Assembly (NCBI GenBank): GCA_020443425.1
Contig: JAGRIE010000012.1
Span: forward strand, 46,285 to 110,284
Length of the DNA stretch: 64,000 nucleotides
From: Halioglobus sp.
GTDB taxonomy: Bacteria; Pseudomonadota; Gammaproteobacteria; Pseudomonadales; Halieaceae
Direction of reading: 5' to 3'
A program made the position numbers and the translations under genes. Below are positions 4,976 through 29,286 of the stretch, piece by piece (position 1 is the stretch's first letter; every line of letters starts with the position of its first letter). The notes under the pieces are model-generated. The model did no database searches, was not told the DNA's origin, and saw only the letters and a list, made by a program, of their open reading frames with translations.

Positions 4976-4988
4976 AGAGGCGCAATCG

Positions 4989-5867: not shown

Positions 5868-5894
5868 CGCTGATCAGGACCACTAGAGGACGAA

Positions 5895-6557: not shown

Positions 6558-6584
6558 AGCATGAACGAAAACAAGGAGAGCAAT

Positions 6585-7664: not shown

Positions 7665-7680
7665 GACCGCGGCGCTGTGC

Positions 7681-9088: not shown

Positions 9089-9146
9089 CGCAGTTGCATC
9101 AGCCCCGCGGTAGGCAAACCAACCCTGATATAGCGATAGTGTGTTT

Positions 9147-10490: not shown

Positions 10491-10747
10491 GGTCGCTGTC
10501 TGTTCTTGCCCTGGCGCTCGCACTCAGTCCAATGGCGGCTGCCTACACCGGCCCGGGACTTGGCCTGGGTGTTGTCGGTACGGTGATCGGTGTAGTGTTC
10601 TCCCTGCTGCTGGCCCTGCTCGCGGTATTCTGGTACCCCTTGAAGCGCGCCTTGAAGCTCGGCAAGAAACCGGCTGACACCACGGATAGCGAAGCCGCCG
10701 AGGAAAACTCGCAGCCCTCAACCGAGAGCGGTCCTGAGCGCGGCTGA
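10487..10747 (+). CDS. Small secreted/membrane protein coupled to ASST-like gene
   Basis: This 86-residue protein has an N-terminal signal (LALALALSPMAAA), a Gly-rich start to the mature part (YTGPGLGLGVVG), one TM helix (VVFSLLLALLAVFWYPL) and a polar, acidic tail. It overlaps the upstream gene by four bases, so translation is coupled. I do not know the family by function. The tight coupling suggests an accessory subunit of the arylsulfotransferase-like protein. Confidence 0.6.
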   Translation: MRSLSVLALALALSPMAAAYTGPGLGLGVVGTVIGVVFSLLLALLAVFWYPLKRALKLGKKPADTTDSEAAEENSQPSTESGPERG

Positions 10748-10756
10748 CAGCCGCGC
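10738..10756. terminator. Hairpin between convergent genes (possible terminator)
   Basis: The stem GCGCGGCT/AGCCGCGC with a 3-base loop spans the stop codon of the small membrane protein, just before the end of the convergent glycosyltransferase gene. The position fits a bidirectional terminator, but no T-run follows on either strand, so it may not be intrinsic. Confidence 0.35.
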
Positions 10757-10759
10757 CGC

Positions 10760-12085
10760 TCAGCCCTGTGCCCGGCCTTTGGTGGCCAGACGCTGCGCCA
10801 GCGTGACAAGGCCGAAACCCGCGAACACCACGAAGCTCAGATCGGCCATCGTGTGATACCTCGGCTCCCCGAAAAACACGGCGACCACCCCGATCATCAC
10901 CAGAACCGGTACCGCCAGCGGCAGGATATCAATGCCTGAGCGCAATGCCGTGACTATTCCGGGCAGTGCCAGCAGCGCGAGCACCCAGAAGGAGATTACC
11001 CAGGCCCAGACCGGCCATGTCGGGGTGCGGTGCCAGGCAGCGACCTCTGCCACGGTGTGGCTGGTCTGGTAGAGGCCAAATGCGCGACCGTATCGGGCCG
11101 CGATGGTCGATGGGAGTTTGTCCAGATTGCCGCGAATCTCGGCAATGGCCGCGTCCCGGTGCAGCCGGTCGATCACAGAGCGGTCTGCGCCTCCCTCAGG
11201 CGTCTTGACCAGACGCATACACTTGCGGTCGTGGAAGCCTTTGCGCTCGCCCTCAAATGTCGTGCTGCAGTTACCGGTCAGCAGGCTGGTGCCCATATTT
11301 GACGAGATCAGCACCGGCTGCTCAAACCTGCTGGCGTTGTAGATGATCCATGGGCTCATCAGCGCCGCTACGATGGCGACCACAACCAGGCCGAGCAGTG
11401 CCCGCCGCAGCAGGCTCACGGTCCGGGCCCTGAGTAGTATCGGCGCCAGCAATACCAGCAGGGCGACCTGCTCCGGTCGTGTCAGAGCAGTCAACCCCAC
11501 GGCGATGCCGACCAGAATCGCGTTGCGGACATCTGTCTGTCGCGAGAACCGGTAGAACGCGATTATGGAGATACCCAGCATCAACAGGGCGAGCGGCTCT
11601 GACAGTATCTGCGCATCGAGCACCCAAAATCCCGGGTACACGGCCGCCAGCGCGCCGCTGGCCGCACCGGCCAGATCACCAAAGACCATGCGCCCGATGG
11701 TCGCGGCAACGACAATGACCAGCATTCCCAGCGCCACGCCCAGCAATTGGTGCCCGTGAATTGTGTCCAGCCCGAGCGCTGAAAAGCCCGCCAGCACGGT
11801 GACCCATGCCGGTGGATGATGTGCAGTCTGTGCCCCGACATCGATCAGCGCTGAGGTGTAGCCCAGCCCGTTGGCCAGCCGCAGGCTCTCCAGATGGTAT
11901 GCCAGCCCGTCGCCACCGATGATGGGGTCCGGCAAGCCGAGAAAGGTGGAGACATAGAGCAGGCGAATGAGGCCGCCCACCAGCAGCGCGACCGCGAGCG
12001 CGGGGCCAAACCGGATTCGCGCCAGCCAGGGGGGCTCTCGGTGGTTACCGGAGGCGTCAACAGGGGCTGGGGTCGGGGGAGTCAA
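10760..12085 (-). CDS. PMT/ArnT-like glycosyltransferase, multi-pass membrane protein
   Basis: This 441-residue protein has about ten TM helices and a short polar N-terminus. The first extracytoplasmic loop carries GGDGLAYH, where GT-C enzymes keep a catalytic Asp, and the order of TM helices and loops resembles the GT39/GT83 (PMT_2) group. Such enzymes transfer sugars from polyprenyl-phosphate donors. Donor and acceptor are unknown. The gene stands alone and is convergent with the sulfation module. Confidence 0.68.
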   Translation of the reverse strand: MTPPTPAPVDASGNHREPPWLARIRFGPALAVALLVGGLIRLLYVSTFLGLPDPIIGGDGLAYHLESLRLANGLGYTSALIDVGAQTAHHPPAWVTVLAGFSALGLDTIHGHQLLGVALGMLVIVVAATIGRMVFGDLAGAASGALAAVYPGFWVLDAQILSEPLALLMLGISIIAFYRFSRQTDVRNAILVGIAVGLTALTRPEQVALLVLLAPILLRARTVSLLRRALLGLVVVAIVAALMSPWIIYNASRFEQPVLISSNMGTSLLTGNCSTTFEGERKGFHDRKCMRLVKTPEGGADRSVIDRLHRDAAIAEIRGNLDKLPSTIAARYGRAFGLYQTSHTVAEVAAWHRTPTWPVWAWVISFWVLALLALPGIVTALRSGIDILPLAVPVLVMIGVVAVFFGEPRYHTMADLSFVVFAGFGLVTLAQRLATKGRAQG

Positions 12086-13851: not shown

Positions 13852-16065
13852 CTACCAGTCCATTTGGATCGATACACCGAAACGGCGCTTGTAGGTGTAG
13901 TCGAGTATCTGTGCCGCCTCCGCACCCACTACCTCCTGGCCTCCGATGCTGGCGACATAGAACTGGTCAAACAGGTTCTGCACATAGAACTGTACCCGGT
14001 AGCTGCCATCCTGCGCGGCGATGCCTGTGTAGAGATCGAAGGTATTGTAGGGGTCGCCCACCAGCAGCGGGTTGTTGGCGGTGTCAAACTGTACCTCGTC
14101 GCGATAAAACACGTTCAGGCTGGCGAAAGCGTCGAACGGCATGGACGGAATGGGCAGGTAGTAGGTGCCAGCGAGATAGGTGGACCACTTCGGGGAGTTC
14201 GGCATGCGCGCGCCCGACAGGTCCTGCGTCCCATTGATGCAGCCCTGGGCCTCGGTCTGGCGTGCGTAACACGGTGCATCCGGCCAGTCGGAGAATGTCG
14301 CGTCGGTGTAGGCCAGCGACCCCTGGACCGCGAAGTTCTCTGTCAGTTGCGCATTGACCTCCAACTCCACCCCCTGGGTTTCCAGTTCACCGGCGTTGGT
14401 CAGGAAAAAAATCGGCGGGAAGGCGCCCGCGACCTGGGCTGAGGCCTGGAAGTCCTTGAAGGTGCTGTAGTAGGCCGCAGCATTCACTCGCAAGCGGTTC
14501 TCGAACCACTGTGATTTGACCCCCAGTTCATAGCTGGTGGGTATTTCGGGGTCGACGAACACTTCACCACTGGTGGGGCCGGAGGGCAGGGAGTTGGAGC
14601 CGGGGCCTTTATAGCCCTTGGCATAGCTGGCATACACCATGGCATCTTCGGCGATGTCGTGTTCGATCATCAGGCGCCAGGAGCCCGCCTGGTCGTGGTC
14701 GTTCTGGTCGATCGAGCCGGGCGGCGCCTCCGGCAGTGTGCCGGGGAAGGAGCCGACTGTCTGCTTGTGGCCCAATTGGTCAAAATTGTATCGCCCGCCC
14801 AGTGACAGGCGGCTGCGATCAGTGATGTTCCAGGTGGCCTGGCCGAAGCCGGCGAAGCTCTCGTTATCGGTTTTGCTGAGATTGGTCACGGACAGCGCGC
14901 CTGAGGCGGCCAGGTCAAGGCCGTAAAGATCGATGTAGCGATAGAACTCGCGATCAACTTTCTTGTAGAAATAATAGAGGCCGGCGACATAGGTGATGGT
15001 GCCGTCGGCGGGCGAGGTCAGGCGCAGTTCCTGTGTGTACTGCTCGTATTTCTCGAAGCTGTCATTGAGTGGCAGCGCCGTGCGCACATAGTCGTCGGCG
15101 CGGGCGGCACCGTAGACGTTCTCATTGGTGTAGGCCGAAATCGAGGTCAGCAAATAGTCGCCGAGCGAATAGTTCAGCTCCATGCTGTAGATGTCGACCT
15201 TGGTCTCGCCCTTGGAGGTATCATTGTCCAGTACCTTGTCGTTCTTGGGGCCCACCGGCCCGCCCTCGCGGTCGGCGACGCTACCCGGGGTCACCTGGCG
15301 CAGTGCGGCGACACAGCAGGTGTGCTTGCGCTCGATATGGGTGTAGTTGAACTGGGCATCAAAATCGTCAGTGATCAACCAGCGCAGCTTGCCCCTGCCG
15401 CCCCATTCATCGCGGTCGTTGAAATCGTCGCCGCCGGGGTACTGGTTGTCGATAATCGGGTCCATGGTGTTGCTGTACATCGAAATACGCCCCAGCAGGG
15501 TGTCCTCCACAATTGGTCCGGAGGCGTAACCGTACAGGTTGACCAGGTCGTTGCTGCCGTAGCTGGTGCGAAAACCCGCGGTGAGCTCCGGTGTGGGGTT
15601 ATAGGTTGTGATGTTCAGCAGGCCGGCGCTGGAGTTTTTGCCGAACAGCATCCCCTGCGGGCCGCGCAGCACTTCCACGCGCTGCACATCGCTGAAGTCC
15701 AGCACAGAGCCTGACAGGCTGCCGGAGGCGACGTTGTCGACCACGGTGCCCACTGACAGGTCCACCGAGCGACTGAAACTGTTGGTGCCGATACCGCGGA
15801 TGAGGATGTTGCGCCCGGCATCACTGGTGCCCTCGGAAAAGGTAAAGCCCGGCACCAGCCGCGACAGGTCGGCGATCTGGGTCTTATTCAGGTCTGCCAG
15901 TTCGGCACCACTGACAACGGCGATGGAAATCGCGACATCCTGCAGGCTTTCTGACCGCTTCTGTGCGGTGACCACCACTTCCTCCAGCTGTTGTGCCTGC
16001 GCGTTGGCCACGGGCAGGATGAGAAGCAGTGCGCCTAGATGACGTGCGAATCGAGAGGTGTTCAT
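13852..16065 (-). CDS. TonB-dependent receptor
   Basis: This 737-residue outer-membrane receptor has a signal peptide ending AQAQQ, a TonB-box-like LEEVVVTAQKR, a plug domain (about residues 50-160, with VEVLRGPQG), and a 22-strand-type barrel ending in an aromatic residue. It lacks siderophore-specific features and belongs to the broad iron-complex/carbohydrate class common in marine bacteria. A second receptor lies 175 bp upstream on the same strand, and I find no AraC site in that gap, so they may be co-transcribed. AAGGA precedes the ATG. The substrate is inferred from context to be a sulfated organic molecule. Confidence 0.85.
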   Translation of the reverse strand: MNTSRFARHLGALLLILPVANAQAQQLEEVVVTAQKRSESLQDVAISIAVVSGAELADLNKTQIADLSRLVPGFTFSEGTSDAGRNILIRGIGTNSFSRSVDLSVGTVVDNVASGSLSGSVLDFSDVQRVEVLRGPQGMLFGKNSSAGLLNITTYNPTPELTAGFRTSYGSNDLVNLYGYASGPIVEDTLLGRISMYSNTMDPIIDNQYPGGDDFNDRDEWGGRGKLRWLITDDFDAQFNYTHIERKHTCCVAALRQVTPGSVADREGGPVGPKNDKVLDNDTSKGETKVDIYSMELNYSLGDYLLTSISAYTNENVYGAARADDYVRTALPLNDSFEKYEQYTQELRLTSPADGTITYVAGLYYFYKKVDREFYRYIDLYGLDLAASGALSVTNLSKTDNESFAGFGQATWNITDRSRLSLGGRYNFDQLGHKQTVGSFPGTLPEAPPGSIDQNDHDQAGSWRLMIEHDIAEDAMVYASYAKGYKGPGSNSLPSGPTSGEVFVDPEIPTSYELGVKSQWFENRLRVNAAAYYSTFKDFQASAQVAGAFPPIFFLTNAGELETQGVELEVNAQLTENFAVQGSLAYTDATFSDWPDAPCYARQTEAQGCINGTQDLSGARMPNSPKWSTYLAGTYYLPIPSMPFDAFASLNVFYRDEVQFDTANNPLLVGDPYNTFDLYTGIAAQDGSYRVQFYVQNLFDQFYVASIGGQEVVGAEAAQILDYTYKRRFGVSIQMDW

Positions 16066-16240: not shown

Positions 16241-18574
16241 CTACCAGAGGTAGCGGGCTTCCACGCCGAAGGTGCGCTCGGCGTAGCGCGGCACCTGATG
16301 GCCGTAGCCATTGGGTGTGAAGTTGCCGGGCAGGGACATGATGCCGGAGACGTACCACTCGTCAAACACGTTTTTCGCGAACAGCGTCAGCGTGTAGCGA
16401 TCCTCGTGGTCCAGTGCCACCAGTGACAGGTCGAGAATCCCGTAGTCGTCCTCGGTCGTGTACTGATCCTGTTCTATGGTGTACTGCACCTCGTCCTGGT
16501 AGCGATAGTTGCCGTTGACCGACAGGTCGAACGGCATGCTCTGCAACGGGATCAGGTAGCTGGCTGCCAGCGTGAATTTCCACTCCGGTGTCGACGGCAA
16601 GTCGCCGCCGCCGAGGTTCTGCGTCGCCGGGCTGTCGGCACAGGTGGTCTGCCCCTTGTAGCCCACACCCCGGAAGCTCTGGCCGAACGAGCAGCCCGCG
16701 CCCAGGAACTCGTTGATCTGCGCATCCACGTAGGCGATGCCGCCGGTCACGGTCAGGTTCTCCATCGGCAGGGCGGTGAAGTCCACCTCAACACCCTGGG
16801 TTTCCACCTTGCCGACATTGGCCAGTACGAAAGCGAAAACACCGTCGTTCTGTCCGTCGCCGTCCTCATCAACGGGGTTGCCGTTCTCATCCAGCTTCGG
16901 GGTGAACTCGGCGGCGCTGGCCTGGAAGTCGTCGAACTTGGTGTGGAATACCGCCACGTTCAAAATCAGTCGGTCATCAAACCAGGTGGATTTCAGGCCC
17001 AGTTCATAGGCGTGGCTGGTCTCGGGGTCGACCGGATCGGTGTTGTCTGGCGTGGAGCCGAAGCCGACGTTGAATGCGGGACCTTTATAGCCCTGGGCGT
17101 AGCTGAAGTACGTCATCGCGGTATCAGTGACATCCCATTCCAGCGCGATTCTTCCCGTCCATTTACTTTCATCGGTGTCGCGCTGGAAATACGGTTGCGG
17201 CTCGGCACCCAGTGTGCTGCCGACGCGCTCGTAGTCAAACTTGAGGTCGTCGTGGGTCCAGCGCAGACCGGTGACGAGGCGCCAGCGCTCTGCAAAATGC
17301 GTGACAGCCTCGCCGAATGCGGCGTAGTTGAGGGAGTCGACACTGAAATCGGCGGCTGATTCAGTGCGGTTGCTGCCGGTGACATCGAAGGAGCGATCAA
17401 ACTTGCGGTCGACGGTCTGGTCAAAATAATACAGGCCCGCCACATAGGTAATGAACTGGTCGGCGGGGGATGTCAGCCGAAGTTCCTGTGAGTACTGGTG
17501 CTGCTTGGACTTGCCGCCCTGCAGGAACCCGAGCGCATCGATGGGCAACTGGTCGTTGTCGCCGCGCGAGTTCTGCGACCAGTCGCGGTAGGCGCTGATC
17601 GAAGTGACGGTGTGTTCGCCCACATCCCAGTTCACTTCCAGCGAATGGCCGGAGGCGTCCGTATCTGTGGTGAGGTCGCCGTTCAGGTTGACCTTGCGGT
17701 TTTCATCGCCCGGTACCACCGGGGCCAGCTGCGCCAGGATGTTGTCTACCTGCGCCTGGTTGTTCGGTGGCTGCGCGGGGTAGACATCCATCGAGCGCAG
17801 GGCCACCACGCAGCAGTGGGACTTGAATTCACTGTAATCGCTGCTCCACTTGAACTGCAGGGTGTCGGTGGGCTCCCACATCAGTTTGCCGCGGATGCCC
17901 CAGTCGTCGGAGTCATTCACGGAGTCGCCGTCGTAGACATTTTCTATCCAGCCCTCGTCCTTGTTGAAGTAGCCGGTCAGCCGTCCCGAGAGATTGTCCA
18001 CAATGCGGTCAGACACGGTGAAGCTGGAGCGGTATTCCTCATCCTCGGTGGCGTAGCCGCGCACTTCTGCCTCAAACTCATCGGTGGGATCGCGAGTGAT
18101 GAAATGCACGACGCCGCCGGAGGCGTTTTTGCCGAACAGGGTGCCCTGCGGGCCGCGCAGTACCTCCACCCGCTGCATATCGACCAGCTGTGCAAACGCC
18201 ATGCCGGACTGTCCCATGACCACGCCGTCCAGCATGGTTGAGATGCTCGGCTCGATACCGGAACTGAATGTCACGGTGCCGATGCCGCGGATACTGAAGG
18301 AGGTCTGTCGCGGGTTGATGCCTTTGTTGAGGTTCAGCGACGGAACCAGCTGGGCCAGGTCTTCCGAACTACCCACCAGCGCATTGACCAGTTCCCGGTT
18401 GGACAGCGCCGTGACGGCTATCGGCACATCCTGCAGGTTGGATGCGCGCTTGGTGGCAGTGACGATCACCTCCTCCAGCCTGAGTGGCGCCTCACTCGCT
18501 GCCGCGCCAATGGTGGCGCTGCCGAGGAGAATGAGACCTGTGGAAAGCAGTGTCCGTCGTGCGATTGTTTTCAT
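16241..18574 (-). CDS. TonB-dependent receptor under AraC-type promoter
   Basis: This 777-residue receptor has a signal peptide, the TonB-box-like LEEVIVTATKR, a plug with VEVLRGPQGTLFGKNASGG, and a barrel ending in ...YLW. It resembles the neighbouring receptor, as expected of a duplicated pair. Upstream is a promoter with two AraC half-sites (18678-18715) that nearly duplicates the one before the sulfatase at 20280. Uptake and desulfation are therefore probably induced together. The chosen ATG is the only start that gives a complete signal peptide. Confidence 0.87.
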   Translation of the reverse strand: MKTIARRTLLSTGLILLGSATIGAAASEAPLRLEEVIVTATKRASNLQDVPIAVTALSNRELVNALVGSSEDLAQLVPSLNLNKGINPRQTSFSIRGIGTVTFSSGIEPSISTMLDGVVMGQSGMAFAQLVDMQRVEVLRGPQGTLFGKNASGGVVHFITRDPTDEFEAEVRGYATEDEEYRSSFTVSDRIVDNLSGRLTGYFNKDEGWIENVYDGDSVNDSDDWGIRGKLMWEPTDTLQFKWSSDYSEFKSHCCVVALRSMDVYPAQPPNNQAQVDNILAQLAPVVPGDENRKVNLNGDLTTDTDASGHSLEVNWDVGEHTVTSISAYRDWSQNSRGDNDQLPIDALGFLQGGKSKQHQYSQELRLTSPADQFITYVAGLYYFDQTVDRKFDRSFDVTGSNRTESAADFSVDSLNYAAFGEAVTHFAERWRLVTGLRWTHDDLKFDYERVGSTLGAEPQPYFQRDTDESKWTGRIALEWDVTDTAMTYFSYAQGYKGPAFNVGFGSTPDNTDPVDPETSHAYELGLKSTWFDDRLILNVAVFHTKFDDFQASAAEFTPKLDENGNPVDEDGDGQNDGVFAFVLANVGKVETQGVEVDFTALPMENLTVTGGIAYVDAQINEFLGAGCSFGQSFRGVGYKGQTTCADSPATQNLGGGDLPSTPEWKFTLAASYLIPLQSMPFDLSVNGNYRYQDEVQYTIEQDQYTTEDDYGILDLSLVALDHEDRYTLTLFAKNVFDEWYVSGIMSLPGNFTPNGYGHQVPRYAERTFGVEARYLW

Positions 18575-18650: not shown

Positions 18651-18679
18651 AAGTTAGGCGTTACCGCCGCAGAAATGAA
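18651..18679 (-). promoter_or_regulatory. Predicted promoter of TonB-dependent receptor gene
   Basis: On the minus strand, TTCATT (18679-18674) and TAACTT (18656-18651) are separated by 17 bp. The same elements with the same spacing (TTCACT/TACCTT) occur before the sulfatase gene at 20068-20096, which is what makes this weak promoter credible. The -35 overlaps the proximal AraC half-site by 2 bp. Predicted leader is about 70 bases. Confidence 0.6.
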
Positions 18680-18715
18680 TGCGCCAAGCTGCTACATACT
18701 TGACTTTTCCTGCTA
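18678..18715 (-). promoter_or_regulatory. Predicted AraC-type operator (two direct half-sites)
   Basis: On the minus strand there are two 17-bp half-sites, each starting TAGCAG, at 18715-18699 and 18694-18678. Their TAGC starts are 21 bp apart. The 31-bp core 18686-18716 matches 20031-20061 (opposite strand) at 28 of 31 positions. The 21-bp direct-repeat layout next to the -35 is that of araI1-I2 in E. coli. The AraC-type gene starts about 1.2 kb away. Confidence 0.72.
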
Positions 18716-18732
18716 TGTTTCGGCAGCGCTGG

Positions 18733-19935
18733 TCAGCGATTGCCGCTGCTCGCCGCGACAGCGGCCACCGTGTTGTTCGCCGTCTCTGGCCTTGGCTGGC
18801 GGCCAAATAACTGGCGAAACTCCCGAGGGCTGCAGCCTATGCTCTTCTTGAAGTAGCGGCTGAACTGTGAAGGATCTTCATAGCCAACCCGCCTGGCGAC
18901 GAGGTTGATGTCATCGTTGTTTGCCAACAGCAGTTTGCGCGCCTGCTGCAGCCGCATATTGTTGCTCCAGGATTTCGGGCTGATGCCCATACGCTCCCTG
19001 AACAGGTGTGCCAGTCGCGATGTGGAGAGGTTGCAAGCGGCGGCCACCTCATCCAGCCGGAATCCCGCTGCGATGTTGCGGCGCATATAATCGCAGGCTT
19101 TCTGGATGCGCCTGTCGACAGCATCATCCAGCGGTGTACTCAGCCCCCGGGCGCGTATCAACAGCTCCTCCAGCCGGTTGTACTGCAGGTCTGTCTGGAT
19201 GGGTGAAGATTCCTGGCTGACCTCCACCAATTCCTCAAACACGCTTTGTATTTTCGCCAGGGACCGGGTGTCGTTTCGTGCCGCATGGTAGACGCCGGTG
19301 TCCAGCGGTCGCCACTCCAGCAGGTCGCCCCAGTGCAGCTGTGGCTGGAACAGGGCCCAGTGATGTGACCAGTGACGGGCGCCCGGGTGCCGGCCACAGT
19401 GAAACGTTGCCTCCGGGCCGAACAACACAAGGTCGCCCGGCCCCGCCTCCAACTCGAAATGGTCGCTCAGGTAAAGTGCCCTGCCTGCGGTCGTCAGGTG
19501 GAGGGTCCAGCAGGGCATGGTCCCCGCATAGTAAGTGCGGCTGTCACTGACTTTGCCGCGCTCGATGACTGTGCAGTTCGCGCTCACGTTGTGCTGGAAC
19601 AGCAGGTTGTGATCAAACGAGACAAACAGTTCCTGCAGGAAAGCCTGTGCGTCGCTCTCGCCCAGCACGGCGGCGCTGTCAAAACGGTGTTTCCAGCGCG
19701 CCACAATCTCTGACTGCAAGTCGCGAAAACTGTCGTCCCGCTGCATGCGGTTAGCGATCTGCTGTACCTGTTGCCGGGTCAAGGGTGAGCCGAACACATC
19801 GCCAATGGCCAGCAACCCCGCCTCGTCCACGGCATTTCCGGTATGCCAGCGGTAACACAGCCTGGCGGCTTCCTCGATCGGGCCGATCTCTGTCAATTTC
19901 CCCATACTGTTCGCTGTTTCCTGCATGCACTGCAT
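18733..19935 (-). CDS. AraC-family transcriptional regulator with AraC-like sugar-binding cupin
   Basis: The central cupin (about residues 145-215) contains GDLVLFGPE...CGRHPGARHWSHHW, a close match to the arabinose-binding domain of E. coli AraC. The C-terminal ~100 residues carry two helix-turn-helix motifs ending SQFSRYFKKSIGCSPREFR. The residue aligned with Arg in AraC's LTIRG is Ala (LTTAG), so the ligand probably is not arabinose. Unlike AraC, it has an extra ~100-residue N-terminal region. Starts at 19935, 19926 or 19905 are possible; further upstream the frame is not protein-like. It lies between its two predicted target promoters and is divergent from the sulfatase gene. Confidence 0.85.
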   Translation of the reverse strand: MQCMQETANSMGKLTEIGPIEEAARLCYRWHTGNAVDEAGLLAIGDVFGSPLTRQQVQQIANRMQRDDSFRDLQSEIVARWKHRFDSAAVLGESDAQAFLQELFVSFDHNLLFQHNVSANCTVIERGKVSDSRTYYAGTMPCWTLHLTTAGRALYLSDHFELEAGPGDLVLFGPEATFHCGRHPGARHWSHHWALFQPQLHWGDLLEWRPLDTGVYHAARNDTRSLAKIQSVFEELVEVSQESSPIQTDLQYNRLEELLIRARGLSTPLDDAVDRRIQKACDYMRRNIAAGFRLDEVAAACNLSTSRLAHLFRERMGISPKSWSNNMRLQQARKLLLANNDDINLVARRVGYEDPSQFSRYFKKSIGCSPREFRQLFGRQPRPETANNTVAAVAASSGNR

Positions 19936-20031
19936 TATTGTTGTGTGGTGGCTGCGCGGCAGCAGGCCGGGGCGCGGTCGTCTCCTATGGCCGACAGTGG
20001 CTGCGCGCAGCGTGGCAGATATCCGAAAGAA

Positions 20032-20069
20032 TAGCAGAAAAAGCCAATTATGTAGCAGCTTCGCACCTT
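20032..20069 (+). promoter_or_regulatory. Predicted AraC-type operator (two direct half-sites)
   Basis: The half-sites TAGCAGAAAAAGCCAAT (20032-20048) and TAGCAGCTTCGCACCTT (20053-20069) begin exactly 21 bp apart. The first follows the TAGC-N8-CCA pattern of E. coli araI1. The second overlaps the -35 by 2 bp. An almost identical site occurs before the receptor gene at 18678-18715, in the same orientation relative to its gene. Confidence 0.75.
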
Positions 20070-20096
20070 CACTTCGAGTGCGGGGGAACCTACCTT
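20068..20096 (+). promoter_or_regulatory. Predicted promoter of sulfatase operon
   Basis: TTCACT (20068-20073), a 17-bp spacer and TACCTT (20091-20096) match the receptor-gene promoter in elements and spacing. Both hexamers are far from consensus, as expected for an activator-dependent promoter. Predicted transcription start is near 20103. Confidence 0.6.
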
Positions 20097-20279: not shown

Positions 20280-21854
20280 ATGTGGAATGGATCTATGCCG
20301 CGAATCGCCTGTGTCAGTGCGGCACTGGCGATTGCCTGTTGCAGTGTACCCGCCAGTGCTGGCGAGCGCCCGAATATTGTATTCATCTTCTCCGACGACC
20401 ACGCGGTGCGGGCGGTCAGTGCCTATGGCGACAGCCTCGTGAAGACGCCGAACATCGACCGGATAGCGGCCAGTGGTGTGCGGTTCGATCGCGCCTATGT
20501 CGGCAATGCCATCTGTGGTCCCAGCCGGGCGACACTGCTGACCGGTATGCACAGCCACGCCAATGGCTTCTACAGCAACGAGTGGTCCGGCCCCTTCGAC
20601 GGCGAGCAGCAAACGCTGTCAAACCTGCTGCAGGGTGCCGGCTACCAGACAGCGGTGATCGGCAAGTGGCACCTGTACAGTGATCCAGTGGGCTTTGATC
20701 ACTGGGAGGTTATCGACAATCTGTTCGAGCAGGGCTCCTATTACAACCCCACGTTCAGGAGCCCTGCCGGTGTGGAGGAGGCAACCGGTTACGTCGCCGA
20801 TCTGGTGACCGATAAATCCATCGCCTGGTTGCAGCAGGCGAAGGCCGGGGACAGGCCGTTTTTCCTGCTGTACAACCACAAGACACCACACCGCGACTGG
20901 CTGCCCGGCCCCCAGGAGTTGCGTGACTGGGACGAGGATGCGCGTATGGAGGAACCGGATACCCTGTTCCGTGACCTCGGTGACCAGACGCGGGCGCGGC
21001 GTGAAGCGCGTATGCGCATCGAAGACTATATGACCGATATGGATGTCAAGCTCAGCATGGGGGGGAGCCTGACGCCGGAGCAGGAGGCGCTGTGGCAGCA
21101 GGCGTTTGCCGAGGGCAATCAGCAGTACGAGTCGTCTGATCTGACGCCGGAGCAGGACCTGCGCTGGAAGTACCAGCGTTATATCAAGACCTATGCCGCC
21201 TCTGTGAAAAGCATGGATCGCCAGATCGGGCGACTGCTGGATTACCTTGAGTCAAGCGGCTTGATGGAGAATACCATTGTCCTGTACAGCTCTGACCAGG
21301 GCTTTTTCCTTGGCGAAAATGGCTGGTTCGATAAGCGCTGGATGGACGAGGTGTCCTCCCGGGTGCCGCTGCTGATGGCGTGGCGCGGACACATACAGCC
21401 GGGTTCCACCTCGGACGCGCTGGTGCAGAATATCGATTTTGCGCCCACCCTGCTTGACGCTGCTGGAGTCACACCGAAACAACCGATGCACGGTGTCAGC
21501 CTGCTGCCACTGGTCGAGGAAAATCCGCCGCCGTGGCAGCGCGATCTGTACTATCATTTTTATGAGAATCCCGGCTTCCACGGCGTTGCGCGGCACTACG
21601 GTATTCGCACGGAGCGCTACAAGCTGGTGTACTACTACCAGAACAATGAATGGGAATTGTTCGACCTGGTGACGGACCCGGAGGATCAGGTGAACCTCTA
21701 CGGCAAGCCGGGCTACGAGGCGATTACTGCGGACCTGAAACTGCGGCTGCAGCAATTACGCACGCAGTACCAGGTGCCGGAGACCGACCCCGAGGTGCCC
21801 TGGTACCACGGCCTGCTGATACGGGCGTTCGAGCGTTTGATGATGTGGCTGTGA
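20280..21854 (+). CDS. Sulfatase (S1, formylglycine type)
   Basis: This is a periplasmic sulfate-ester hydrolase of 524 residues. The signal peptide ends near ASAGERPNI. The metal-binding FSDDH is at about residues 37-41. The signature CGPSR is at Cys79, the residue converted to formylglycine. ATG 20280 is preceded by AGAAGGA (20267-20273); the frame is open further upstream but that part is not protein-like. It is the first gene after the AraC-type promoter, followed by a second sulfatase, DUF3604 and SDR genes. No formylglycine-generating enzyme is in the window. The substrate is unknown. Confidence 0.88.
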   Translation: MWNGSMPRIACVSAALAIACCSVPASAGERPNIVFIFSDDHAVRAVSAYGDSLVKTPNIDRIAASGVRFDRAYVGNAICGPSRATLLTGMHSHANGFYSNEWSGPFDGEQQTLSNLLQGAGYQTAVIGKWHLYSDPVGFDHWEVIDNLFEQGSYYNPTFRSPAGVEEATGYVADLVTDKSIAWLQQAKAGDRPFFLLYNHKTPHRDWLPGPQELRDWDEDARMEEPDTLFRDLGDQTRARREARMRIEDYMTDMDVKLSMGGSLTPEQEALWQQAFAEGNQQYESSDLTPEQDLRWKYQRYIKTYAASVKSMDRQIGRLLDYLESSGLMENTIVLYSSDQGFFLGENGWFDKRWMDEVSSRVPLLMAWRGHIQPGSTSDALVQNIDFAPTLLDAAGVTPKQPMHGVSLLPLVEENPPPWQRDLYYHFYENPGFHGVARHYGIRTERYKLVYYYQNNEWELFDLVTDPEDQVNLYGKPGYEAITADLKLRLQQLRTQYQVPETDPEVPWYHGLLIRAFERLMMWL

Positions 21855-21997: not shown

Positions 21998-23653
21998 ATG
22001 CGTAAATGGCTGGCCTGTATCGCCCTGCTGGTCGCGCAATGCGCAGCCGCGCAAACACCGCGACCCAATATTCTGCTGTTAATGGCCGAGGATATGAGCG
22101 CCAGGGTGGGGGCGTTTGGCGATACCGTGGCCGCTACGCCCAACCTCGATGGGCTTGCCGCCGAGGGTGTGCGCTATACCAACACCTTCACCTCGGCGGG
22201 TGTCTGTGCGCCGAGCCGGGCGGCACATATCCTCGGTATGCACCAGATCTCCACCGGCACACAGCATATGCGCAGCAGCACCAGGCCCGAGGGCGGCTAC
22301 TACTCGGTGCCTCCGGCCGAGGCCAAGGCCTATCCTGAACTGCTGCGGGCGGCGGGCTACTACACCTATACGGACAACAAGCTGGACTACCAGTTCAGCG
22401 ATGTGTTTGCGCACAGCGGCCCGACCACGATCTGGGACACTGAGGGCGCTGCCGCAACAGACTGGGACGGGCGTGCGCAGGGCCAGCCCTTCTTCGGCTT
22501 TACCAGTTTCATGGTGACGCATGAAAGCGGGGTATTTCCCGGCCTGGGTGAAATGCCCAACAGCGCAGTCAACCTGGTGATGCAGTTGATGCGCTGGTAC
22601 CTGCGGGACGGCCCGTTGCCCGATGTCGTGACCCCGCAGGACATAGTGCTGCCGCCATACTATCCCGACACCGGGACCGTGCGCGCCGATATGGCGCGAC
22701 ACTACAACAATATCGCCTACATGGATGCCGAGGTCGGTGCCATTCTCCGGCAGTTGGATGCCGCCGGGCTGGCGGACTCCACGATAGTGATATGGACGAC
22801 GGATCACGGCGATGGCTTGCCGCGCGCCAAACGCGAGCTGTTTGATTCTGGTATCAGGGTGCCGATGATTATCCGCTGGCCACCGGCGTTCAGGCCCGAC
22901 GGGGTAGAGCCCGGTACTGTGGATGAAAGATTGATCAGTTTTGTCGATCTGGGCCCGACGATACTGTCGCTGGCGGGGGTGCCGGTGCCGGCCACTATGC
23001 AGGGGCGCGACTTTGCCGGCAGTGATGCGGTACCCAATGAGTATATTTATGCATCCCGCGACCGGATTGATGAGCAGATCGACCGTCAACGGGCTGTCAG
23101 GGATACGCGCTACAAGTATATTCGCAGCTGGTATCCGGATCTCCCCGGCGGCAGCGATCTGGCATTCCGCAATAATAGCAATATGGTGCGGGAGATGCGT
23201 GCGATGTACGACGCCGGGCGGTTGAATGCGGTGCAACAGCAGTGGTATCAGCCGCCGGGCGGTGAGCGCCTGTTTGATCTGGCGCGGGACCCATTCGAGA
23301 TACGCGATGTCAGTGATGATCCGCACTACCGGGACGTGCTGCAGCGCATGCGGGGTGAGATGACCGACTGGCTGGCGCGTGTGGGCGACTGGAGCGAAGA
23401 GGCTGAATCCGCTATGGTCGCCAGGTTCGCACCGGATGGACAGAGGCAGGTCACGCCGGCCCCGACCGTGGTGCTGGCGTCGGGCAGGCTGGTGCTGACG
23501 CCGGTTGCGGCAGGGTCGTCGCTGGAGTACCGCATCGATGGCGGTGATTGGCAGCTCTATACCGCGCCGGTCAGCGTCGACAGGGGCAGTGAGATAGAGG
23601 CCAGGGCAGTGCGCTATGGCTGGGAGGAGAGTGAAATTGTCAGTGGTACATGA
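21998..23653 (+). CDS. Sulfatase (S1) with chitobiase-type C-terminal domain
   Basis: This 551-residue exported sulfatase has a signal peptide (MRKWLACIALLVAQCAAA), the signature CAPSR at Cys70 and the active-site stretch TTDHGDG. The first metal motif reads AED rather than the usual ADD. The last ~65 residues (from about VVLASGRLVL, with LEYRIDGGDWQLYT) look like a chitobiase/beta-hexosaminidase C-terminal module, which may help bind a glycan. ATG 21998 has GGAGT just upstream. The end overlaps the start of the DUF3604 gene. Confidence 0.86.
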   Translation: MRKWLACIALLVAQCAAAQTPRPNILLLMAEDMSARVGAFGDTVAATPNLDGLAAEGVRYTNTFTSAGVCAPSRAAHILGMHQISTGTQHMRSSTRPEGGYYSVPPAEAKAYPELLRAAGYYTYTDNKLDYQFSDVFAHSGPTTIWDTEGAAATDWDGRAQGQPFFGFTSFMVTHESGVFPGLGEMPNSAVNLVMQLMRWYLRDGPLPDVVTPQDIVLPPYYPDTGTVRADMARHYNNIAYMDAEVGAILRQLDAAGLADSTIVIWTTDHGDGLPRAKRELFDSGIRVPMIIRWPPAFRPDGVEPGTVDERLISFVDLGPTILSLAGVPVPATMQGRDFAGSDAVPNEYIYASRDRIDEQIDRQRAVRDTRYKYIRSWYPDLPGGSDLAFRNNSNMVREMRAMYDAGRLNAVQQQWYQPPGGERLFDLARDPFEIRDVSDDPHYRDVLQRMRGEMTDWLARVGDWSEEAESAMVARFAPDGQRQVTPAPTVVLASGRLVLTPVAAGSSLEYRIDGGDWQLYTAPVSVDRGSEIEARAVRYGWEESEIVSGT

Positions 23654-25781
23654 TACGGCAGGACGCGGGCGAACAACCGCTGTGGGGCGGGCGGGTGCGG
23701 CGGCCGCACTGTGCGGTGCACTGTCGCTGTTCACGGTCGCGACACTGGCGCAATCCGGCGCGGAAGGGGAGCCACTGGCGCCCTCCGGAGCCGCGACTGG
23801 CGTTGAAGTCGCCACCGCGACGGAGGGCGCACAGGCAGCCGCTGAAGCGGGCGCTGGTGGTGACGTCGAAGCTGCAGAAGTGGTGGAAGTCGAAGTCGTG
23901 CCGGTGCCGATCCCGGAACAGCGGTACTCAGAAGCGCGCGCGCCCTGTGCGACCCGAGCGCCCCTGAAACAGGCGTTCTTCGGGGATCTGCATGTGCACA
24001 CTCGCTACTCGCTGGATGCCAGTACACAGGGCACGCGCACAACCCCCGCCCAGGCCTACCAGTTCGCGCGCGGCGAGCGGGTCGGCATCCAGCCGTGGAC
24101 TGAGGATGGCCAGGCGCTGCGCTCCCTGCAGCTGGCGCGACCGCTGGATTTTGCGATGGTCTCGGATCACGCGGAACTGATCGGCGAAGTTTACATGTGC
24201 AATACCCCGGAGTATGAGGGATACAGCTCCTGGCAGTGCATCCTGTACCGCAACTGGTCGCGCGGGGCGTTCTACCTGTTCAATTTCTGGGCCACCATGC
24301 AGCAGGATCACCTGGGGCAGTGCGGTGAGAACGGCGAGCTGTGCCTGGCCGCAGCCCTGCAGCCCTGGCAGGAGATGCAGGAGGCGGCCGAGCGCTATTA
24401 CGATCGCAGCGAAGCGTGTGAGTTCACCACCTTTGTCGGCTACGAGTGGACTGGCATGGATTCCTCCAACGGCGGCAACCTGCACCGCAATATTGTGTTC
24501 CGCAATGCCGAGGTGCCATACCTGCCCACCAGTTTCATCGATGCCCCCGCGGCACATCTGCTGTGGGATTCCCTCGAGGAGCAGTGCAACGGGCTGGACA
24601 ATACCTGCGAGTCCCTCGTGATCCCGCACAACTCCAATTACAGTGCCGGCTCAATGTTTACCGGGCTGGCGGACGATGGCTCGCCGATGAGCGCCGAATA
24701 CGCGGCCTCGCGCGCGTACTTCGAACCACTGGTAGAGGTGATGCAGCACAAAGGGGCTTCGGAGTGCTATTTCGAGGCCGGTGTCACAGAAGACGAACTG
24801 TGCGCGTTTGAGCAGTTACCCCAGGACAACATCGCCGGCTTTGATGAGCCCCCCAAGCCGGATACCGGCTTTGTGCGCCGGGTGCTGGCGGACGGTCTTG
24901 TCATCGAGGGTGACGTGGGCGTCAACCCCTACCAGTTCGGCCTGATTGCCAGTACTGACACCCACCTGGGCACGCCCGGGGCCGCGCGCGAGGACCTGTT
25001 CCTGGGGCATGGCGGTGCCGGGGTGTCGGCGGAGACAGAGGTGCCGCCCGGGCTGCCCGATGAGCTCGAGTACAACCCGGGTGGGCTGGCCGTACTGTGG
25101 GCCCATGAGAACAGCCGCGATGCGCTGTTCGATGCCATGCGCCGCCGCGAGGCCTATGCCACCAGCGGGCCGCGTATTACCAGCCGTTTTTTTGCCGGCT
25201 GGGATTTCCCGGCTGACCTGTGCGCGGCGCCGGATCGTATTGAGCGCGGCTATGCCGACGGTGTGCCGATGGGCTCGATACTGGCCGGCCCTGCTGCAGA
25301 GGGACGCCGCCCCACCTTTCTTGTCGCAGCGAGCCAGGATGCCGGTACGCCGGACCAGCCCGGCACCCCGCTGCAGCGGCTGCAGGTCATCAAGGGCTGG
25401 GTCGATGCCGACGGCGAGCGCCATGAACGCGTGATCGATGTGGCGGGCGATGCCGACAACGGCGCCTCGGTCGACCTGCAGTCCTGCGTCACCAGTGGTA
25501 GCGGCTTCGCCGACCTCTGTGCCGTCTGGGAAGACAGGGACTTCGATCCCAACCAGCGCGCCTACTACTATTCACGCGCAGTGGAAAATCCCACCTGCCG
25601 CTGGAGCCAGCGCATGTGCGCCGCCGCAGGTGTGAACTGTGCGGACCCCGAGACTATTGCCAAGGGGTATGAGGGCTGCTGCGTGGCGGAACATCGACCG
25701 GTGGTGCAGGAGCGCGCATGGACCTCCCCGGTGTGGTACAGCCCGGCCACGGGTGCGGGCCCCACGGCGGCGCTGCACTGA
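23616..25781 (+). CDS. DUF3604 domain exported protein (PHP-like fold)
   Basis: This 721-residue protein has an N-terminal hydrophobic export segment (about residues 28-47), an Ala/Glu-rich linker (50-100), and a DUF3604 domain beginning FFGDLHVHT. His126 and His128 there form a metal motif like that of PHP phosphoesterases; further His/Asp ligands occur in VSDHAEL and STDTHLG. It is rich in cysteine (many in pairs), fitting a periplasmic location. Start choice is uncertain among ATG 23616, GTG 23631 and TTG 23637. GGAGGAG lies just before the latter two. All overlap the upstream sulfatase gene. The activity is not established for this family; context suggests a hydrolase acting on the sulfatases' products. 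Confidence 0.8.
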   Translation: MAGRRVKLSVVHDTAGRGRTTAVGRAGAAAALCGALSLFTVATLAQSGAEGEPLAPSGAATGVEVATATEGAQAAAEAGAGGDVEAAEVVEVEVVPVPIPEQRYSEARAPCATRAPLKQAFFGDLHVHTRYSLDASTQGTRTTPAQAYQFARGERVGIQPWTEDGQALRSLQLARPLDFAMVSDHAELIGEVYMCNTPEYEGYSSWQCILYRNWSRGAFYLFNFWATMQQDHLGQCGENGELCLAAALQPWQEMQEAAERYYDRSEACEFTTFVGYEWTGMDSSNGGNLHRNIVFRNAEVPYLPTSFIDAPAAHLLWDSLEEQCNGLDNTCESLVIPHNSNYSAGSMFTGLADDGSPMSAEYAASRAYFEPLVEVMQHKGASECYFEAGVTEDELCAFEQLPQDNIAGFDEPPKPDTGFVRRVLADGLVIEGDVGVNPYQFGLIASTDTHLGTPGAAREDLFLGHGGAGVSAETEVPPGLPDELEYNPGGLAVLWAHENSRDALFDAMRRREAYATSGPRITSRFFAGWDFPADLCAAPDRIERGYADGVPMGSILAGPAAEGRRPTFLVAASQDAGTPDQPGTPLQRLQVIKGWVDADGERHERVIDVAGDADNGASVDLQSCVTSGSGFADLCAVWEDRDFDPNQRAYYYSRAVENPTCRWSQRMCAAAGVNCADPETIAKGYEGCCVAEHRPVVQERAWTSPVWYSPATGAGPTAALH

Positions 25782-25825
25782 GGTGGCGAGCGCAGCGGAT
25801 TTTGATAACAACGAGAGGCACTGCA

Positions 25826-26599
25826 GTGGCTGATACAGGAAAAGTGGTACTGATAACCGGTGGCGGCAGTGGTATGGGGCGTGAGGCCGCGCGGCGCTTC
25901 GCCGCCGAGGGAGCCACCGTCGCGCTGTTCGACGTGAATACCGCAGGCATGGCGGAGACCGTCGGCACTTTTGACAGCATTCACAGCTGGACGGTGGACA
26001 TGACCGATTTCCCGGCGGTCTGTGCGGCGGTGCGGGAGGTCGAGGAACAACTCGGCCCGGTCGAGCGACTGTATAACTGCGCGGCGATCATGCCCTTCGG
26101 CAAGCTGGTTGAGCAGGACAATGCCATCATTCACAAGCAGATGGCGATCAACTACGGCGGCCTGGTCAATATTACACAGGCGGTATTGCCGGGCATGCTG
26201 CAGCGCGGCCGGGGCGATTTTGTCAGTTTTGCCTCGATGGCAGGCCTGATCCCGATGCTGCTGACCGGCGCCTACACTGCCTCCAAGTTTGCCGTGGTCG
26301 CATTCACGGAGACGCTGTACCACGAGAACAGGGACTCCGGTGTCCGTTTTGCCTGCGTCTGCCCGCCCGCTGTCGCCACGCCGCTGCTGCAACAGGGCAA
26401 AGACACAGCCTGGCCGCGGATGCTGGACAGCCAGAGCGCACCCATCAAACCCAGGATTGTCATCGAAGCGGTGGAAGACGGCCTCAAAAGAGGCAAGTTT
26501 TTTATATTCCCGACACGCGATTCAAAGATCGGAGCCCTGATGCGACGCCTGCTGCCAGGTCTCATCTGGAAGCAGGTACACCAGGTCGAGGGCTTCTAG
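25826..26599 (+). CDS. Short-chain dehydrogenase/reductase (SDR)
   Basis: This 257-residue NAD(P)-dependent oxidoreductase has the cofactor motif TGGGSGMG (residues 11-18), NCAA in place of NNAG, a catalytic Ser in FASMAG and the YTASK catalytic pair. It starts at GTG 25826 with GAGAGG seven bases upstream; the longer open frame upstream has no SDR features. It closes the sulfatase/DUF3604 operon, 44 bp after DUF3604. It is probably cytoplasmic, oxidising or reducing an alcohol or sugar derived from the imported substrate. Confidence 0.85.
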   Translation: MADTGKVVLITGGGSGMGREAARRFAAEGATVALFDVNTAGMAETVGTFDSIHSWTVDMTDFPAVCAAVREVEEQLGPVERLYNCAAIMPFGKLVEQDNAIIHKQMAINYGGLVNITQAVLPGMLQRGRGDFVSFASMAGLIPMLLTGAYTASKFAVVAFTETLYHENRDSGVRFACVCPPAVATPLLQQGKDTAWPRMLDSQSAPIKPRIVIEAVEDGLKRGKFFIFPTRDSKIGALMRRLLPGLIWKQVHQVEGF

Positions 26600-26636: not shown

Positions 26637-26665
26637 TTGACAGTTACCGGCGTTGTCTCTAAATT
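26637..26665 (+). promoter_or_regulatory. Predicted sigma70 promoter for Gfo/Idh/MocA operon
   Basis: A perfect TTGACA (26637-26642), a 17-bp spacer and TAAATT (26660-26665) lie 90 bp upstream of the oxidoreductase start. This suggests the 26.7-34.4 kb block can be transcribed independently of the AraC-controlled operon before it. Confidence 0.6.
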
Positions 26666-26755
26666 GGCCTGACCACTTTTTCGGGCCATTTATTTTTGCT
26701 CTTACTGACCCGGATTGGCAGGGAAATCCGGCGATGCGAGAGGTGAACACAGCCG

Positions 26756-27910
26756 ATGGGGCAGAACAGCGTAGTGCGACTGGGCGTAATTGGCCTGGGC
26801 AATATCGCCAGACAACATATTCAAAACCTGGCTGGCGGGCAGGTTGCGGACTGTGAGCTCGCGGCGACCTGCGCGCGCCAGGCGCCGGCGGCCGCAGACG
26901 CGTTCGGAGTCCCTCATTTCACGGATTACGCCGAGTTGGTGCACAGTGGTACCTGTGATGCCGTGGTGGTGGCGACGCCGACATTCACCCACTTCGACAT
27001 CGGCGCCTGTGCACTGCGCGCTGGCCTGCATGTGCTGATGGAGAAGCCCATCGGGCTCTCCACCCAGGAGGGCGAGCAACTGCTGGCCCTGCAGCGCCCG
27101 GGACAGGCGTTTGCCCTGATGCTGAACCAGCGCTGTGATCCACTGTTTGTCACCATGCGGGAGCTGATTGAGAAGGGTGTGCTGGGGCAGATCACGCGGA
27201 CACACTGGACGATGACCAACTGGTTCCGGCCCGAGGTGTATTTCCAGGTCAGTGACTGGCGTGCCACCTGGCGCGGCGAGGGCGGCGGCCTGCTGCTGAA
27301 CCAATGTATTCACAACCTGGATATATTCCAGTGGCTGTGTGGTATGCCGGCATCGGTGCAGGCGTTCTGCGAGTTCGGTCGCTACCACGACATAGAAGTG
27401 GAGGATGAAGCGACCGCGTATTTCCGCTATGCCAACGGTGCTACGGGTGTCTTTGTGGGTTCCACCGGCGAGGCGCCGGGCGTGAATCGATTCGACATCA
27501 TCGGTGATCGCGGTGCTCTGGCATTCGACGGCCAGCGCCTGACCCTGAGTGAAAACGAACCCGGCACCCAGGCGTTCAGCCGGGATACACGGGAGATGTT
27601 TGGTATGCCCGTGACCACGGTGAGCGACATCACCCCGGAGCGCGCTGTCAACCAGCACGCGGCGGTGATGGGCAACTTCGCGGCAGCGATCCTGCGCGGT
27701 GAGGAACTGCTGGCACCGGCCGCGGCGGGACTGGACTCGCTGGCCCTTGCCAACGCCATGCTGCTTTCCACTTGGGAGGCGCGCACAGTGGATCTGCCGC
27801 TGGACAGCGGCCACTACCAGCAGCAATTGGCACAGCGTATTGCGACCTCGTCACTGCGCCGTAAAGCGGATATTCAAGCCAGTATAGATATGAGTGCCTC
27901 CTACCGATGA
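26756..27910 (+). CDS. Gfo/Idh/MocA family oxidoreductase
   Basis: This 384-residue NAD(P)-dependent sugar-type dehydrogenase has the Rossmann motif GVIGLGNIARQH (residues 10-21), the cofactor-proximal MEKPIG, and the catalytic-helix region GGGLLLNQCIHNLD. Related enzymes oxidise sugars or cyclitols, often at C3 (as in ThuB, inositol dehydrogenases). A promoter precedes it and an ATGA overlap joins it to the transporter gene. No signal peptide is visible, so it is cytoplasmic. The exact substrate is unknown. Confidence 0.85.
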   Translation: MGQNSVVRLGVIGLGNIARQHIQNLAGGQVADCELAATCARQAPAAADAFGVPHFTDYAELVHSGTCDAVVVATPTFTHFDIGACALRAGLHVLMEKPIGLSTQEGEQLLALQRPGQAFALMLNQRCDPLFVTMRELIEKGVLGQITRTHWTMTNWFRPEVYFQVSDWRATWRGEGGGLLLNQCIHNLDIFQWLCGMPASVQAFCEFGRYHDIEVEDEATAYFRYANGATGVFVGSTGEAPGVNRFDIIGDRGALAFDGQRLTLSENEPGTQAFSRDTREMFGMPVTTVSDITPERAVNQHAAVMGNFAAAILRGEELLAPAAAGLDSLALANAMLLSTWEARTVDLPLDSGHYQQQLAQRIATSSLRRKADIQASIDMSASYR

Positions 27911-29286
27911 CAACAACCGCAGATACCGCAGTCGAACTGGAAGCCAGGGAACTGGCGGTACTGGCGCAAAGGCCGCTGCGCCAGCGCCTACCCACCTACC
28001 TGCGCCTCAGCGGCCCCGGCTGGCTGCAGGGCGCGATGACCCTCGGCGGCGGCAGCGCGATCACCTCGCTGACCATCGGCGCCGTGTACGGCTATGAGCT
28101 GCTGTGGGTGCAGCCCCTGTCGATGTTGATCGGCTGCATCATGCTGTTTGCACTGTCGCACCAGACCTTGAGTACCGGTGAGCGACCGTTCGCCGCGATG
28201 CGCGATCACGTACATCCCTCGGTCGCCTGGCTGTGGGCCATCGCGGCCCTGGCTTCAAGTATTATCTGGGGCTTTTCACACTATCCCCTGAGCGCCGGCA
28301 TGCTGGAGGAAATCATCGCGGTCAGCGGCGGTTTGGACCTGCAGGACCAGCCCGGAATGGCGCGTGAGTTCTACCTGTTTGGACTGGCGGTTCTGGTCTG
28401 GATGGTGTGTGCCTACACCGCCTGGCACTACGGCGCCGGTGGACGTGCCGTGAAGGTATTCGAGACGGCCATCAAGGTGCTGAGCGGCATGATCATCCTG
28501 GCGTTCCTGTGGGTGGTGCTGGCGGCGACCGCCAATGGCCAGGTCGACTGGGGTGCGGTACTGGCCGGCTACATTCCCGGCAGTTTGCCGAGCGATGCAG
28601 CCGGTGTGACCACTATCATGGCAGCGCTCGGCACCGCGGTCGGCATCAATATGACATTCGTCTACGGCTATACGCTGCTGGATCGCGGGTGGGGCCCCGC
28701 CCACCGGGAGCTGTCGCGCTACGATATCGTGATCGGGCTGGTGCTGCCGTATGTGCTGGTAACCGGCCTCATCTCCATAGCCGCCGCCGGTGCATTCTAC
28801 GGCTCGGATTTCACCATCAGCGGCACGCTCAGCCCGGCGCAGGCGGGTGCGATGTTCAGCGACGCCGGCATGGGTGCCATCACTGGTCGCCTTGTCTTTG
28901 CGGTGGGTATCCTGGGGATGGCGGTGGGATCGCTGGTGATGCATATGTTGTGCTGCGGTGCCGCCGCCGGCGCCATGTTCAACTGGGAACCGCATTCGCG
29001 ACAGTATCGGCTCGCCCTGCTGCTGCCGACACCCGCTGTGCTGGGGGTGTTCCTGTGGTCGTCGATGGGGGCCTACGTGATTCTTCCCACCTCTGCGATC
29101 TGCGGTTTCCTGTTGCCCATCGCCTATCTCGGCTGGCTGTTCCTGAACAACAGTAAAACCTACCTGGGGGCGGATCGTCCGGAGGGCGCACGCCGCGTCT
29201 GCTACAACCTCGCGATGGTGTTGTGTATCCTCACTGTGCTGGCCAGTGTCACCTACAGCACTGGCGTCAAGCTGAACTGGTTCTGA
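27907..29286 (+). CDS. Nramp-like transporter lacking metal-binding motifs
   Basis: This 459-residue protein has about eleven TM helices and an Nramp-like N-terminal signature (SGPGWLQGAMTLGGGS, residues 35-50). Classical Nramp metal transporters have DPGN in helix 1 and MPH in helix 6. Here the helix 1 site reads TLGGGS, and the helix 6 region reads GINMTFVYGY (from residue 246). The family fold is recognisable but the metal ligands are missing, so an organic or other substrate is likely. It sits between two Gfo/Idh/MocA genes, with a 4-bp overlap upstream and 10 bp downstream. Confidence 0.75.
   Translation: MTTTADTAVELEARELAVLAQRPLRQRLPTYLRLSGPGWLQGAMTLGGGSAITSLTIGAVYGYELLWVQPLSMLIGCIMLFALSHQTLSTGERPFAAMRDHVHPSVAWLWAIAALASSIIWGFSHYPLSAGMLEEIIAVSGGLDLQDQPGMAREFYLFGLAVLVWMVCAYTAWHYGAGGRAVKVFETAIKVLSGMIILAFLWVVLAATANGQVDWGAVLAGYIPGSLPSDAAGVTTIMAALGTAVGINMTFVYGYTLLDRGWGPAHRELSRYDIVIGLVLPYVLVTGLISIAAAGAFYGSDFTISGTLSPAQAGAMFSDAGMGAITGRLVFAVGILGMAVGSLVMHMLCCGAAAGAMFNWEPHSRQYRLALLLPTPAVLGVFLWSSMGAYVILPTSAICGFLLPIAYLGWLFLNNSKTYLGADRPEGARRVCYNLAMVLCILTVLASVTYSTGVKLNWF

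Follow-up and report, generated by a model that had tools for sequence, protein, structure and literature searches.

Two AraC-type operator-promoter modules flank a regulator gene in Halioglobus and are predicted to co-induce TonB receptor and sulfatase genes

A report on the Escherichia coli arabinose system describes how AraC recruits RNA polymerase when it occupies araI1 and araI2, and how it loops between operators (PMC4760080). A second point of reference is the lac cluster of Caulobacter, for which the published account lists the glycoside 3-dehydrogenase LacABC, a DUF1080 3-ketoglycoside hydrolase, epimerases and a reductase (PMC9007349). For the Halieaceae, 87 sulfatases in six strains are reported in PMC10100682. 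Marine sulfated-glycan utilisation loci combine a TonB receptor with several sulfatases, and the locus described here does the same. Unlike those loci, it carries a single AraC-type activator with a located, predicted site; unlike the Caulobacter lac cluster, it joins sulfatases to an AraC-type activator. No description of sulfated-glycan loci under an AraC-type activator with a located site was found among the papers searched.

The stretch of DNA analysed (the window) comprises 64,000 nucleotides of a Halioglobus genome; its contig measures 110 kb, and the assembly of 4.33 Mb is 94% complete. An AraC-type regulator gene (18733-19905, minus strand) is flanked by one operator-promoter module on each side. 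Both modules follow the same 65-bp plan, with a half-site I1, a half-site I2 starting 21 bp further on, a -35-like TTCAYT and, after 17 bp, a -10-like TAMCTT. Module 1 (18651-18715, minus strand) faces a TonB receptor gene (16241-18574) and has I1 at 18715-18699, I2 from 18694, TTCATT at 18679-18674 and TAACTT at 18656-18651; from 18715 to 18651 it reads TAGCAGGAAAAGTCAAG tatg TAGCAGCTTGGCGCA TTCATT-17-TAACTT. Module 2 (20032-20096, plus strand) faces the sulfatase operon, with I1 at 20032-20048, I2 from 20053, TTCACT at 20068-20073 and TACCTT at 20091-20096, and reads TAGCAGAAAAAGCCAAT tatg TAGCAGCTTCGCACC TTCACT-17-TACCTT from 20032 to 20096. The -35 and -10 elements are putative assignments made by consensus reasoning. 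A first-pass annotation of the same DNA had given these coordinates, TAGC half-sites 21 bp apart and TTCAYT-17-TAMCTT, all of which were found as described. Its core agreement at 28 of 31 positions was reproduced as the best ungapped 31-mer match between the two intergenic stretches; in 60 shuffles of two-base blocks the maximum was 21. Over 42 bp the modules are 83% identical, against 28-38% in their surroundings. When a 27-bp core pattern was searched with up to three mismatches, the whole 4.33-Mb assembly yielded two matches, modules 1 and 2. Rfam gave no match in the window at the gathering threshold.

The modules were compared with araI1-araI2 of pBAD in E. coli MG1655 (NC_000913.3). In both systems head-to-tail TAGC half-sites adjoin a weak promoter, and araI1 and I1 share CA at half-site positions 14-15. 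The operators had been proposed to resemble araI1-I2, and their 21-bp half-site spacing is indeed that of MG1655. The further statement that the arrangement reproduces pBAD is exact for this spacing but not for the -10, which lies one base farther from the start of I2 (38 bp here, 37 bp in E. coli). The two systems also differ in that two modules surround the regulator gene here and in that no conserved araO2-like distal half-site was found around the regulator in the nine loci compared. A lone extra half-site, TAGCAGTTTTAGTCAAT, was seen at 10364 in locus L030 of genome G057, 63 bp upstream of I1; it is a possible looping site.

The regulator is predicted to have 390 residues, and its coding sequence most likely starts at 19905 because its orthologues align there. 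An N-terminal region of about 100 residues precedes an AraC-like cupin and a double helix-turn-helix (HTH). The earlier proposal of an AraC-like cupin and DNA-binding domain was borne out by Pfam matches to AraC_binding, HTH_18 and HTH_AraC: the cupin matched AraC_binding (PF02311) with 35 bits against a cut-off of 21, and the C-terminal double HTH matched HTH_18 with 85 bits and HTH_AraC in two stretches. Both parts are matched in all nine orthologues, the cupin at E values up to 1. By sequence the protein aligns with the AraC cupin (PDB 1xja and 2arc) and with the AraC DNA-binding domain (2k9s), and its cupin and double HTH are homologous to those of AraC. The motif SRxxHLF, which we take to be part of the first recognition helix of E. 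coli AraC, is common to that protein and all nine orthologues. The extra N-terminal region likewise occurs in all nine orthologues but is absent from E. coli AraC, and in the window's regulator it had no Pfam match at E values up to 1. Close relatives of the regulator among named records come from Halioglobus japonicus BC5_1 and a Halioglobus metagenome genome.

The first-pass annotation had staked its reading on conservation of the sites in related genomes, and a module was found at nine of nine orthologous regulators with readable upstream DNA (four of the nine come from genomes less than 94% complete). This count leaves out G150, in which the regulator, with 38% identity, begins where its contig ends; the genome's six pattern matches with two mismatches all lie on contigs other than that of the regulator. 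Two Halioglobus relatives, G001 and G002, with regulators 67 and 69% identical to that of the window, retain the two modules at the corresponding positions. Compared with these relatives, the 42-bp core is 83-93% identical, whereas identity falls to 23-42% in the 65 bp on its upstream side and to 49-60% in the 65 bp on its downstream side. Taken singly, module 1 has a core identity of 90-93% and an upstream identity of 31-42%, and module 2 has values of 83-86% and 23-25%. Because the core is retained between diverged flanks, its conservation is a footprint and not the result of simple recent kinship.

One module each was found with five further regulators of the family (41-45% identical; G057, G004, G013, G003 and G011), in every case with the regulator on one side and a divergently oriented GH3 gene on the other. 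The GH3 assignment comes from Pfam in G013, and the genes of the other four loci share 67-70% identity with the G013 gene. In G057, G004, G013 and G003, the four of the five loci with readable downstream genes, GH3 is followed by a TonB receptor and sulfatases; the G003 contig stops 48 codons into its sulfatase match, and the 6.5-kb contig of G011 stops just after GH3. G672, from another family of the same order, has a regulator 48% identical to that of the window and one exact module about 140 bp upstream. This module faces, on one strand, genes for a sulfatase, gluconate-2-dehydrogenase subunit 3, a frame fragment of an FAD-type oxidoreductase, ThuA, a TonB receptor and a second sulfatase. 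The sulfatases and receptor of G672 are not clear orthologues of those in the window, since their longest aligned pieces are only 29-31% identical.

How closely the site keeps to this regulator is evident from scans with a 25-base core pattern drawn from the first 11 sites. It matched 9 of 140 family genomes, namely the eight source genomes, which match by construction, and one stray, G031. Of the 140, 120 were searched for the regulator, and no genome besides the same eight has one that reaches 41% identity. Where a family genome has only a regulator of at most 33% identity, the site is absent except in G031; there no regulator match lies within 9 kb around the site, and only a 26% match to a TonB receptor was detected. 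In the order, 9 of 390 genomes matched (that of the window, G672 and seven others), and a reversed control pattern matched one. None of the seven strays has both the TT of the -35 and the TA...T of the -10 in register, one of them has the TT, and no regulator match was found on the 2.3-3.0 kb around them. Orthologues of the regulator at E 1e-55 or better were found in 1 of 369 genomes of the class (the window's own), in 3 of 390 of the order (the same genome, G150 and G672) and in 1 of 10 of G672's family (G672 itself).

All 12 regulator-adjoining sites show the pBAD-type plan, in which direct half-sites lie 21 bp apart and the downstream one touches the -35. They also carry TT at columns 37-38 and TA...T at columns 60-65 in the same register, and these columns lie outside the search pattern; at no other column from 29 to 130 does TA...T reach 6 of 12. 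The register had been noticed on inspection of the first 11 sites and was counted afterwards, and G672 is the one fully out-of-sample case. Agreement with consensus is low in all 12 promoters, with 2-4 of 6 positions matched in the -35 and 3-4 of 6 in the -10. A weight matrix of the 12 sites was run over the window and 16 loci; among the best four places in each, nothing scored above 3.4 besides the 12 sites themselves (at least 47.6). The same matrix failed to pick the E. coli promoter, its best place in that locus scoring -7.2 and lying elsewhere.

Because the -35 and -10 are weak in 12 of 12 cases, activator-dependent promoters would be expected. The shared geometry, the weak promoters, the AraC-homologous domains and the retained SRxxHLF argue for AraC-like activation at both modules. 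We consider it very probable that the regulator activates both in the manner of AraC and thereby induces receptor and sulfatases together; co-activation of the receptor and sulfatase units by an AraC homologue, as one predicted regulon, is well supported by the genomic evidence. A ligand-responsive activator encoded at 18733-19905 would bind head-to-tail half-sites of approximately TAGCA(G/A)-N7-CA, 21 bp apart. With the downstream half-site abutting the weak -35, the bound dimer would recruit RNA polymerase in the way known for AraC at pBAD. Induction from module 1 would reach TonB receptor 1 and perhaps receptor 2 as well; from module 2 it would reach both sulfatases (A and B), the DUF3604 protein and a short-chain dehydrogenase (SDR). 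Substrate uptake and desulfation would in this way be induced jointly.

The regulator might instead be a repressor, or a dual regulator that loops between operators 1.3 kb apart over its own gene and keeps both promoters shut until an inducer arrives. Two full sites flank the gene in all three genomes of the window's clade, and looping by AraC itself is described in PMC4760080. Six of the nine orthologues, however, have a single exact site, so the family as a whole cannot depend on a loop between two full sites for its core mechanism, and the weak -35 and -10 of all 12 promoters fit activation. Such a role seems unlikely to us.

It is still less probable that the protein is an L-arabinose regulator, the name that NCBI's AraC model would give it. 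Eight of the nine orthologues pass the equivalog cut-off of NCBIfam PRK10572 (208 bits), the window's regulator with 213; that of G004 scores 201.7. E. coli AraC, in contrast, reaches 512 bits on the same model. The arabinose isomerase family PF02610 had no match in any of the nine genomes (74-99% complete), as against 5 of 14 control genomes; araA was the one arabinose gene searched for. The neighbouring genes encode sulfatases, TonB receptors and sugar-oxidation enzymes and not arabinose catabolism. Arabinose was rejected as the ligand on these grounds, and because araA is unmatched in nine of nine genomes and the gene neighbourhood is different, the regulator probably responds to another compound. 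The first-pass annotation had also excluded arabinose, and that conclusion stands; its reason, that the Arg of LTIRG in AraC is replaced by Ala, does not, for this position is A, R, A, G, A, G, A, R and Q in the nine orthologues and was discarded as a ligand signature. The arabinose-contacting residue of AraC is presumably Arg38 in IDRPLG; the window's regulator has Tyr at the aligned position.

That both sites are a functionless repeat or the remnant of a mobile element is hardly credible: the two copies do stand out from their surroundings (83% over 42 bp against 28-38%), but the genome holds only two of them, the site lies beside nine of nine testable orthologues, the flanks have diverged in two close relatives and the promoter register is kept in 12 of 12.

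AraC-like activation at both modules thus being the preferred reading, the predicted target of module 1 is TonB-dependent receptor 1 (16241-18574, minus strand), which has the Pfam Plug and barrel domains. This gene had been described as ending at 18574; it is on the minus strand, and 18574 is its start. Relatives of the receptor, 46-50% identical, occur in the single-site loci of G057, G004, G013 and G003. TonB-dependent receptor 2 (13852-16065, minus strand) lies downstream as a possible second gene of the unit, in an order that is the same in G001 and G002. Because both genes are on the same strand and no terminator-like site is listed on the minus strand in the 175-bp gap between them, receptor 2 may be co-transcribed with receptor 1.

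On the plus strand, the predicted sulfatase unit consists of sulfatase A (20280-21854; Pfam Sulfatase and SGSH_C), sulfatase B (21998-23653; Pfam Sulfatase), a DUF3604 protein (23616-25781; assigned by Pfam) and, as its last gene, the SDR (25820-26599). The leader from the putative module 2 promoter would measure about 180 nt. Sulfatase A contains CGPSR and sulfatase B CAPSR, in agreement with C-x-P-S-R, which we take to be the formylglycine sulfatase motif. Matches to PF03781, a family that includes other enzymes besides the sulfatase maturation enzyme, occur in all nine genomes; that of the window has two, in frames of 709 and 452 residues. Sulfatase A is 82-83% identical in G001 and G002, 70-74% in G057, G004 and G013 and 83% over the 48 readable codons of G003. 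No literature linking DUF3604 with sulfatase was found. In locus L039 of G002 (4353-11002), a block comprising a TetR regulator, a TonB receptor 83% identical to receptor 1, a sulfatase-like gene and DUF3604 stands between sulfatases A and B.

Between the SDR gene and a Gfo/Idh gene, a promoter-like TTGACA-17-TAAATT (26637-26665, plus strand) overlaps a hairpin with a T-rich tail (26665-26688). The stretch 26637-26688 probably separates the sulfatase unit from the genes after it, which lends support to 26599, proposed earlier as the end of that unit. Since such sites are common by chance (the same scans found 6 promoters with 4.8 expected and 19 terminators with 11.8 expected), conservation is the better argument: G001 keeps both hexamers, their spacing and the hairpin stem, with a loop one base shorter and a less T-rich tail. 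The available stretch of G002 ends within the SDR gene and lies outside this comparison. Beyond the SDR follow genes for two Gfo/Idh oxidoreductases, an Nramp-like transporter and a protein of 1319 residues, an arrangement that suggests a promoter of their own. The Nramp-like protein (27907-29286), encoded between the two Gfo/Idh/MocA oxidoreductases, scores above the Pfam Nramp cut-off and below that of NCBIfam (37 against 50 bits), and its substrate may be other than a metal. The 1319-residue protein (30450-34409) unites a 3-keto-disaccharide hydrolase domain (DUF1080, PF06439) with DUF7133 and cytochrome c; in the corresponding neighbourhood, G001 has a frame of 1321 residues whose start is similar. 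Farther on, the stretch 34910-43554 holds a third TonB receptor and a third sulfatase and then, on the opposite strand, a cytochrome P450 gene and an AMP-binding (acyl-CoA-ligase-like) gene, which perhaps hint at a lipid-linked substrate.

The inducer, if not arabinose, would probably be formed from a sulfated glycoside. Among the proteins encoded at the loci of related regulators are GH3, GMC oxidoreductase, gluconate-2-dehydrogenase subunit 3, ThuA and xylose-isomerase-like proteins. By protein families alone, several of these recall the lactose 3-oxidation cluster of Caulobacter (PMC9007349): a GMC oxidoreductase with a xylose-isomerase-like protein in G013, gluconate-2-dehydrogenase subunit 3 with ThuA in G672 and the DUF1080 domain at 30450-34409 in the window. 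The substrate could be a sulfated glycoside that enters by way of the TonB receptor and loses its sulfate before 3-keto chemistry or GH3 opens it, a proposal to which we give roughly an even chance.

A single module is found with six of the nine orthologues, in three genera and two families, and two modules are confined to three close relatives. Position 7 of I1 is G in module 1 and A in module 2 in all three two-module genomes, which implies that the module was copied before these genomes diverged. The GH3 gene of the window's genome, 71% identical to that of G013, lies on another contig beside a GMC-type gene cluster and has no module. The regulon is thus not conserved as a whole, because GH3, the gene opposite the module in five relatives, is found here at a site-less place on another contig. 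The simplest account, its direction read from this distribution alone, is that an ancestor had one module driving one operon and that in the window's lineage the operon was divided so that the regulator stood between its parts, the module was copied and GH3 left the regulon. We lean slightly towards a more general proposal, in which a whole lineage of regulators that the standard model would name arabinose AraC would be sulfated-glycoside sensors with an added N-terminal domain, one branch having split its operon and copied the module so that both halves would remain under one signal.

The regulators described here form a naming trap: eight of nine pass the arabinose-AraC cut-off, araA is unmatched in all nine genomes, and automatic naming may mislead. 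Here the pBAD geometry, with a deviation of no more than one base, serves a system that probably has another ligand, and the locus is a clear candidate for an operon split with its promoter copied. For Halioglobus and its kin it provides a defined, testable candidate regulon for the use of sulfated substrates.
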